From Rhodococcus oryzae (GTDB taxonomy: Bacteria; Actinomycetota; Actinomycetes; Mycobacteriales; Mycobacteriaceae), in NCBI RefSeq assembly GCF_005049235.1, contig NZ_SUMD01000018.1:1-53424 (forward strand): a stretch of DNA of 53,424 nt, read 5' to 3'. The translations under genes and the position numbers were made by a program. The notes beneath the pieces were generated by a model. It worked only from the letters and a program-made list of their open reading frames with translations. It ran no database searches and was not told where the DNA came from. Every line of letters begins with the position of its first letter. Position 1 is the stretch's first letter. Shown here in pieces: positions 34,039-36,341 of this stretch.

Positions 34039-35640
34039 TTGGCAGTCACCAGAAGATCATTCATGCAGGGACTCGGTGTCACCGGCGGCGTCGGCCTGGC
34101 GTACGGGGCGATGTCGACCCTCGGTCTTGCCCCGGCGACCGCGGCCGCGCCCCGCCGCTTCCAAGCCCCGGCGATGGGCGACCTGATCGGCCAGGCGCCC
34201 GGCTCGCAGTCCATCGTGATCCTCGGCGGCGGGCCGGCGGGCCTGTGCTCGGCCTACGAGCTGCGCAAGGCGGGCTACGACGTCACGGTGCTCGAGGCGC
34301 GGACCCGTCCGGGCGGCCGGGTGTACTCGGTGCGCGGCGGCACGACCGAGACCGACCTGAACGGTGAGACGCAGACCTGCACCTTCTCGGAGGGGCACTT
34401 CTACAACCTCGGCGCCACCCGGATCCCGCAGAGCCACATCACCCTCGACTACTGCCGCGAGCTGGGAGTCGAGATTCAGCCGTTCGGCAACCAGAACGCG
34501 AACACCGTCGTGCACTACAAGAGCGACACCTCGATCTCGGGCCAGTCCGTCCAGTACCGCGCGGCCAAGGCGGACACCTTCGGGTACATGTCGGAGCTGC
34601 TCAACAAGGCCGCATCGATGGGTGCGCTCGACGACGTCCTCTCGCCGCAGGACAAGGAGGCGCTGGCATCCTTCCTCAGTGATTTCGGCGACCTGTCCAG
34701 CGACGGTCGCTATCTCGGATCCTCCCGGCGCGGTTACGAATCCGAGCCGGGCGCGGGGCTGAACTTCGGCTCCGAGACCAAGCCCTTCGCGATGTCGGAG
34801 GTGATCCGCGGCGGGCTCGGGCGCAACTTCAGCTTCGAGTTCGGGTACGACCAGGCCACGATGATGATGACCCCGGTCGGCGGCATGGATCGCATCTATT
34901 ACGCCTTCCAGGAGGCGATCGGAACCGATCGGATCCGATACGGCGCCGAGGTGACGGCGATGAGGAACGTGCCCGACGGCGTCACCGTCGAGTACACCCA
35001 GGACGGCAGGGCGCGGTCGATCACCGCCGACTACTGCATCTGCACGGTGCCGCCGAACCTGGTGGGCCGCTTCGCGAACAACCTGCCTGCGGACGTGCTG
35101 ACCGCGCTCGAGGCGGCCATCCCGGTTTCCTCCGGCAAGCTCGGCATCGAGTACTCCCGGCGGTGGTGGGAGACGGAGGACCGCATCTACGGCGGCGCCA
35201 GCAACACCGACAAGGACATCTCTCAGATCATGTTCCCGTACGACCACTTCGGCTCCGACCGGGGCGTGGTGGTCGGGTACTACAACACCGGCAAACGACA
35301 TCTCGCCTTCGAATCGCTCACGCACCGACAGCGTCTGGCCAAGGCCGTCGCGGAGGGCACGGCGATCCACGGCGACAAGTACGGACGCGACATCACCTCG
35401 TCCTTCTCCGGGAGCTGGCGCCGGTCCCGGTACTCGGAGGGCGCCTGGGTCGGGTGGAAGGGGGCGGGGGACTCGCACGGCGGCGCCGCCACCCCCGAGT
35501 ACACCAAGCTGCTCGAACCGGTGGAGCGGATCTACTTCGCAGGCGACCACCTGTCCAACGCGATCGCCTGGCAACACGGTGCCTTCACCTCCGCCCGCGA
35601 CGTCGTCACGGCGCTGCACCAGCGCGTCGCGCTCAGCTGA
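34039..35640 (+). CDS. Tat-exported flavin L-amino acid oxidase
   Basis: 533 residues from a TTG with GGGAG 6 nt upstream. This start is required to keep the twin-arginine signal [10 protein letters not shown] (residues 4-13) followed by a hydrophobic stretch and an ATAAA cleavage region, so the enzyme should be folded with FAD and exported. FAD-binding [36 protein letters not shown], then [66 protein letters not shown] and [18 protein letters not shown]. From memory these blocks closely follow the Rhodococcus opacus L-amino acid oxidase of known structure. Reaction: L-amino acid + O2 to imino acid + H2O2. Followed after 29 bp by a RidA-like lipoprotein. Confidence 0.9.
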
Positions 35641-35669
35641 CCTCCCCTCGACACAAGGAGAAACGAACG

Positions 35670-36341
35670 ATGCAGAACCGCATGCGATTCACCGCTGCCA
35701 CCGCCGCCGCTGCGGCAGGGATCATCGTCCTGGCCGGCTGCTCCTCCGATACGGAGGAACCCGCGGTGCCCGCGGAGTCGGCGGCCTCGACGTCGGTGCT
35801 CGAACCGGGCGAGGCGAACCCGATGATCGCCCAGGGCGTCACCATCGCCGGCGACAGCGCCGTATACAAGACGAGTGGGCTCGGGCCGTCCGCGATGAAC
35901 AAGGCGGCGCCGGAGGGCAGCCCGGAGTCCTATGTCGACACCGCGCAATTCTCCGGCGGGGTGCTCCCGCCGGGGGTGACCGTCACCGAGGCCCAGGGCA
36001 TCGGGGTGCTCAAGAAGATCCGCGAGAGCCTGGAGGCGCAGGGCCTGACCCTCGGGGACGTCACCACCATGCGGGTGTTCCTCGACAATGCGCCGGGCAC
36101 CGACCGCGCCGACTACGCCGGCTGGAACCGGGCCTACCGCCAGTTCTTCGCGAACACGAATCTCGAGACCGGGGACACCGAGTTGGTGGCGATGGGGACC
36201 GCGGAGCCGGCCGCGCCGCTCGAGCGGAACGAGGCGCGCCCCACTCGGTTTGCGCTCGAGGTGGGCAGCCTGCCGGTGCCGGGCTGGCTGGTGGAGGTCG
36301 AGGTGGACGCGGTGTACCCGGCGGGGAAGGGCCCGCAGTAG
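35670..36341 (+). CDS. RidA/YjgF-family lipoprotein
   Basis: 223 residues. Signal peptide with lipobox VLAGC, then a RidA-like domain: AVYKTSGLGPSAMN, EAQGIGVLKKIRESLEAQGLTLGDVTTMRVFLDNAPG and RPTRFALEVGSLPVPGWLVEVEVDAVYP; the Arg in ARPTR is the expected substrate-carboxylate ligand of this family. Classic RidA hydrolyses reactive imines and enamines in the cytosol; here it is lipid-anchored outside. AAGGAG precedes the ATG. Placed directly behind an exported imine-producing oxidase, it probably hydrolyses the imino acid to keto acid and ammonia. Confidence 0.85.
   Translation: MQNRMRFTAATAAAAAGIIVLAGCSSDTEEPAVPAESAASTSVLEPGEANPMIAQGVTIAGDSAVYKTSGLGPSAMNKAAPEGSPESYVDTAQFSGGVLPPGVTVTEAQGIGVLKKIRESLEAQGLTLGDVTTMRVFLDNAPGTDRADYAGWNRAYRQFFANTNLETGDTELVAMGTAEPAAPLERNEARPTRFALEVGSLPVPGWLVEVEVDAVYPAGKGPQ

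Follow-up and report, generated by a model that had tools for sequence, protein, structure and literature searches.

Rid proteins have mainly been studied as cytosolic repair enzymes. A locus of Rhodococcus oryzae raises the question of what such a protein would do outside the cytoplasmic membrane. In the window analysed here (the whole stretch of DNA, 53,424 nucleotides long), the gene of a Rid protein with a lipoprotein-type signal peptide directly follows the gene of an L-amino acid oxidase (LAAO) with a twin-arginine (Tat) signal. We consider it probable that the two proteins form a module that deaminates amino acids oxidatively on the outer side of the cytoplasmic membrane, for which nitrogen scavenging would be the likeliest use. 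As of 2015, according to the available text of PMC4433059, the substrates on which Rid1, Rid2 and Rid3 act in vivo were wholly unknown; for Rid2, a link between DadY and the catabolism of alanine has been made since then (PMC9714295, available part). The pairing of a Rid3-like protein that has an export signal with an LAAO gives Rid3 a candidate substrate and a place of action.

Two adjacent genes with export signals

The LAAO gene (positions 34039 to 35640, + strand) opens with TTG and encodes a flavin amine oxidase of 533 amino acids, as judged by its open reading frame, by a Pfam match to PF01593 (Amino_oxidase, E 6.4e-43) and by alignment with the Rhodococcus opacus enzyme 2JAE. The latter was by far the best solved LAAO relative in a PDB search (909 bits, E 7.3e-273), residues 47-531 of the LAAO aligning gap-free to residues 2-486 of 2JAE over 485 residues, and on sequence grounds the protein is an orthologue of this solved enzyme (2JAE/2JB1-3). 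The copy found in the R. opacus locus of our collection (L045) is 80% identical and, in the open reading frame call, also opens with TTG. Read by eye, the N-terminus carries the twin-arginine motif TRRSFMQ within a Tat signal region of residues ~1-38 (34039 to 34152, + strand, an approximate extent), which ends near APATAAA (...APATAAAP).

The Rid gene (35670 to 36341, + strand) follows after a gap of 29 bp (35641 to 35669, + strand), in which a ribosome-binding-like AGGAG precedes the Rid ATG and no terminator-like site was found; a promoter scan found no promoter. From Pfam, the PDB search and conserved residues, its product of 223 amino acids is a predicted lipoprotein and a predicted imine deaminase of the Rid3-like type. 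The N-terminus, MQNRMRFTAATAAAAAGIIVLAGCSSD, was read by eye as a lipoprotein signal peptide ending in the lipobox L-A-G-C24 (35670 to 35741, + strand, C24 included), and the five other Rid proteins of the same genome show by eye no export signal. The initial annotation had placed the pair at 34039 to 36341 with the same 29-bp gap, both of which are correct, and both the Tat signal that it read on the oxidase and the lipobox signal that it read on its partner were seen again by eye.

The name RidA, which the initial annotation had given to the second protein, stood in part. The domain is there: PF01042 (Ribonuc_L-PSP) matches residues 107-215 with an E of 4.8e-11, at 43.2 bits against a curated cut-off of 27.3. 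The identity of an archetypal RidA was rejected, the closest solved relatives in the PDB search being the Rid3 proteins PSPTO3006 (9BKA, E 9.7e-12) and PFL1385 (9BKC, E 2.9e-10), with TdcF next at 0.034; the first two rank first again in a search with a profile of 31 sequences, and it is on the best PDB matches that the Rid3 assignment rests. Two insertions set the protein apart from PSPTO3006, one of ~15 residues that follows the SGLGP loop and one of ~22 just ahead of the strand with the expected arginine.

The conserved residues agree with this assignment. The Rid3 pattern, as given in the available text of PMC4433059, keeps the Arg and the Glu and has Ile in place of Tyr, and this pattern (I53, R193, E209, E211) is found in all 80 loci analysed, the best 80 of 145 Rid relatives, in which S69 and G70 are invariant as well. 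I53 aligns with Ile15 of 9BKA, and R193, the expected carboxylate-binding arginine (codon at 36246 to 36248, + strand), aligns with an Arg of both 9BKA and 9BKC; loss of this substrate arginine, which the initial annotation had named as an argument against its reading, is thus not what we found. The I53 column is presumably the Tyr17 column of TdcF, and the choice of the catalytic Glu is presumptive likewise. In a single-chain AlphaFold2 model of residues 24-223 (mean pLDDT 79.5, the first 18 residues below 50), Arg193 (model residue 170) opens a strand, and Glu209 and Glu211 (186 and 188) lie in the last strand.

Recurrence of the pair

A collection of species genomes was scanned with the Rid protein alone, which gave 145 relatives, and the best 80 were analysed. 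An LAAO adjoins Rid in 78 of these best 80 loci, a figure that is conditional on Rid as the starting point and gives how often a Rid gene has an LAAO. The two loci without one (L051 and L067) are cut by the end of the contig, which lies 84 and 188 bases from the start of the Rid match. Within the best 80, the LAAO lies upstream on the same strand in 74 loci and on the opposite strand in four, all from Cellulosimicrobium (L105, L107, L108 and L109). With start codons chosen by a script, the gap between the two genes has a median of 29 bp among the 40 lipobox pairs of this set (the largest, 281, at the broken locus L070), and LAAO and Rid overlap by 4 bases in 27 of its 34 same-strand pairs lacking a lipobox, which suggests coupled translation. 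At L070 itself (3394-4713, Pseudonocardia sp. CNS-139), the LAAO match stops at query residue 353, through a frameshift or an assembly error.

At the level of the family, 16 of 151 genomes have a full-length Rid, and exactly these 16 also have an LAAO (E up to 1e-30), adjacent to it; these searches scored at most 19 and at most 9 candidates per genome, the 135 genomes without the pair being less certain than the 16 positives. Five further weak Rid matches (E 1.9e-6 to 1e-3) occur in family genomes without LAAO. Within the genus, three of six genomes, the source included, have the Rid gene and the module is therefore patchy; in the Rid tree, the rows closest to that of the window belong to Rhodococcus spelaei, R. 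aetherivorans and R. triatomae. Phylum-wide searches, which found each gene in one of 396 genomes (the source itself), scored 3 or 7 candidates per genome and hence carry no weight. That LAAO and Rid stand side by side by accident has next to no probability: we reject it on the adjacency in 78 of the best 80 loci, the presence of both genes in one set of 16 among 151 family genomes and the start-stop overlaps. The pair thus recurs in other genomes, the absence of which would, for the initial annotation, have refuted its proposal.

For other phyla, plasmid records gave 25 with a Rid match and 37 with an LAAO match. Of the 25, 12 were examined, ten taken from the Rid matches and two, Metabacillus and Sphingomonas, from the LAAO matches; of the 37, 13 were examined, six of them already covered through their Rid match. 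In the latter 37 the LAAO relatives are less than 60% identical, and a comparison of coordinates, with the Rid search at a threshold of E 1e-3, places a Rid match within 1 kb in 15 and at ~3.3 kb in one (Sphingomonas) and leaves 21 with no Rid match. This last result speaks against a strict need of LAAO for Rid in the wider family. Five of the 21 (Deinococcus, Rhizobium, Mesorhizobium, Dinoroseobacter and Roseinatronobacter; L121-L124 and L126) yielded no Rid in the stretch to tblastn with four Rid queries, and have a Tat-type LAAO beside a cytochrome c. The order LAAO-cytochrome c-Rid, with a signal peptide on Rid, is found in plasmid records of Comamonas, Ketogulonicigenium, Paracoccus, Sulfitobacter and Microvirga. 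On a plasmid of Metabacillus (Bacillota; L120, 2480-5743), the cluster reads LAAO-Rid-TatA-TatC, and the presence of TatA and TatC beside LAAO, their likely cargo, fits Tat export. Across Actinomycetota, Pseudomonadota and Bacillota, three phyla in all, Rid3-like proteins with export signals have an exported amino acid oxidase as neighbour.

Among ten Rid plasmid records searched by tblastn, six have an LAAO in the fetched stretch and four (Komagataeibacter, Bosea, Cupriavidus and Proteus) do not. In the Cupriavidus, Bosea and Proteus records (L116, L117 and L119), the fetched stretch has a Rid with a signal-like N-terminus and gave no match to LAAO, and these may be exported Rid proteins with other partners. 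The Komagataeibacter plasmid (L113, 3740-4423) has a cytochrome c and a Rid gene next to genes of integrase and IstB-like type and gave no match to LAAO; an insertion element has perhaps interrupted a cluster there. In Sphingomonas (L125, 3995-9157), an LAAO, a TonB-dependent receptor and a RidA with a signal-like N-terminus stand in one row, and ~2 kb upstream of the Metabacillus cluster lies an annotated metallo-beta-lactamase gene.

The predicted lipid anchor, the gene neighbours and the proposed function

The signals and lipoboxes of all loci were called by eye. Throughout the best 80 of 145 loci, Rid has a signal-like N-terminus, and the twin arginine is kept in all 78 LAAOs that these loci hold. 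Of the 80, 42 (L030-L070 and L096), from Rhodococcus and close genera, Nocardia and Pseudonocardia, have a lipobox-type Cys, which is also found in the Rid of all 16 pair-bearing family genomes. The other 38 of the best 80, for example from Arthrobacter, Kribbella and Nocardioides, show a signal-like N-terminus with no clear lipobox, the Kribbella loci L072 and L078, whose IASC stretch is a possible lipobox, being counted as non-lipidated. Two changes account for the anchor on a Rid tree of 86 rows. In a single branch, 42 of the 43 rows have it, the exception being Microlunatus (L071), and the lipobox Rid of Comamonas stands apart from this branch; its annotated start falls inside the signal, and the in-frame stretch upstream gives LAGC.

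This distribution bears on two alternative views of the anchor. The lipobox might be unused or Rid released, leaving a soluble exported enzyme as in the relatives that lack the lipobox, and signal peptides without the lipobox Cys beside the same LAAO in Arthrobacter, Kribbella, Nocardioides and others would agree with this. Against it, the Cys is retained in every one of the 42 loci that come, within the best 80 of 145, from Rhodococcus with its near genera, from Nocardia and from Pseudonocardia, and one originated separately in Comamonas; we regard this view as very unlikely. According to the other view, which we take to be quite unlikely, Rid would mainly be a structural or docking subunit that holds LAAO at the membrane, with little catalysis. 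Lipid anchor and linker would suit such a tether, and for Chlamydomonas a single complex of LAAO (M-alpha) with RidA (M-beta, termed non-catalytic) has been described (available text of PMC5053998, citing Vallon 1993). However, the catalytic Arg and Glu are invariant in all of the best 80 of 145 loci, 38 of these 80 have a Rid without a clear lipobox, so that tethering is not the shared role, and the PDB search matched no Rid-like chain of 2JAE/2JB1-3, so that the R. opacus LAAO was solved without Rid.

The anchor goes together with a particular neighbourhood. Divergent from the LAAO gene lies, on the - strand, the gene of an APC-type amino acid permease (32289 to 33797; PF00324, E 9.8e-7), and next to it, on the same strand, that of an IclR-family regulator (31513 to 32289; PF01614 and PF09339), whose start codon overlaps the stop codon of the permease gene by one base. 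Homologues of both occur in the same 41 of the best 80 of 145 loci, namely in Microlunatus and in every one of the 40 lipobox loci whose upstream DNA is long enough, and the 37 other LAAO-bearing loci gave no permease or IclR match at E 1e-8. The permease is thus found in 40/40 lipobox loci with enough upstream DNA versus 1/38 others; in three of the loci lacking the lipobox (L086, L098 and L099), the DNA ahead of the LAAO match extends for only ~1.3 to 1.6 kb, so that part of a permease at most would be visible. The lipobox marks one actinobacterial clade, which also bears the divergent IclR-permease pair. No CXXCH was seen by eye in the flanking permease, the IclR regulator or a 174-aa ORF, and a cytochrome c gene is absent from the pair. 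Elsewhere in the window (38856-39668) lies the gene of a DUF3472 protein with a signal-like N-terminus, unrelated to the LAAO-Rid pair.

In the two-protein module that we favour, the Tat pathway would export LAAO, presumably folded with its FAD, and LAAO would oxidise L-amino acids to imino acids, with the electrons probably passing to oxygen to give H2O2. The Rid3-like protein would be exported separately as a lipoprotein, and Cys24, if lipidated as predicted, would with a linker of ~25 residues tether it to the outer face of the membrane, where it would hydrolyse the imino acids to keto acid and ammonia. This chemistry is assigned because of the protein families of LAAO and Rid, and it is placed outside the cell because both proteins carry export signals. 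By analogy with Chlamydomonas and in view of the gene neighbours, the most likely role would be to scavenge nitrogen (and keto acids) from amino acids outside the cell, for which the divergent APC permease and IclR regulator would provide uptake and control. We infer the release of ammonia outside the cell, as well as the lipidation, localisation and activity of Rid. On the other side, imino acids hydrolyse without an enzyme too (PMC4433059, available text), and therefore the need for Rid is not obvious; and a permease beside a deaminating enzyme that acts outside counts against the module reading, its role there being unexplained.

The permease also enters two further proposals. A surface metabolon might exist in Rhodococcus, Nocardia and Pseudonocardia, in which LAAO would dock on the tethered Rid3 beside the APC permease and the products would be handed over, none escaping. 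The link between anchor and permease (40/40 versus 1/38 among the best 80 of 145 loci) would be its sign; common descent alone could account for this co-occurrence, and we think such a metabolon unlikely. Just as improbable to us is a module serving as an extracellular generator of H2O2 against competitors, in which Rid would merely speed turnover. Amino acid oxidases of marine bacteria are described as antimicrobial proteins (PMC4699246, available text), but the permease and IclR neighbours of our pair suit catabolism, and the five proteobacterial relatives that pair LAAO, cytochrome c and Rid suggest respiration there, not H2O2 release.

Comparison with known systems

The initial annotation held that no exported couple of LAAO and RidA had been described, a view that the published cases of Chlamydomonas and Gluconacetobacter contradict (available text of PMC5053998 and PMC10805672). 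In Gluconacetobacter diazotrophicus, a lao-cccA-ridA cluster encodes an LAAO with a Tat signal, a cytochrome c and RidA (PMC5053998), the LAAO being predicted to be periplasmic and clustered with a Rid gene as in the Rhodococcus pair. That cluster includes a cytochrome c gene, whereas the Rhodococcus genes are separated by 29 bp and have none; it is tied to indole-3-acetic acid, and export or lipidation of its RidA is not mentioned in the available part of PMC5053998. In Chlamydomonas, the periplasmic LAO1 with LAO2/RIDA likewise joins an extracellular LAAO to a RidA partner, with extracellular release of ammonium and keto acids (PMC10805672, PMC5053998). Chlamydomonas is a eukaryote, and the available parts of these two sources mention no lipid anchor for its RidA.

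Among bacterial Rid proteins, the Rid3 members PSPTO_3006 (9BKA) and PFL_1385 (9BKC) deaminate in vitro imines made by a venom LAAO, as described in the available text of PMC5619798; both are shorter than the Rhodococcus protein, and PSPTO_3006 lacks its ~15- and ~22-residue insertions. The DadA-DadY operon of Pseudomonas aeruginosa also couples an FAD amino acid dehydrogenase to an imine-removing Rid, with an effect on fitness, but DadY is a Rid2 protein acting in D-alanine metabolism, and the imine enters the cellular milieu rather than the exterior (PMC9714295, available part). A 2015 paper had noted that genes of RidA, and in some cases of Rid3, cluster with those of amine oxidases (PMC4433059, available text); a word search found neither 'signal' nor 'periplasm' in that paper and no 'signal' in PMC5619798. 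Among the matches listed, in which subscription papers were thinly covered, no lipidated Rid protein was found in titles or the starts of abstracts. The exported LAAO-Rid couple is thus already known, and its lipid-anchored Rid3-like form with permease and IclR neighbours seems undescribed.

The closest comparison is within the genus. Our literature searches found, among the matches listed, no publication naming a Rid neighbour of the R. opacus LAAO. This enzyme (2JAE, 2JB1-3) is by sequence orthologous to that of our pair, and in the R. opacus locus L045 a Rid gene with a lipobox adjoins it, which gives an LAAO with solved structures a natural Rid neighbour that is immediately testable.
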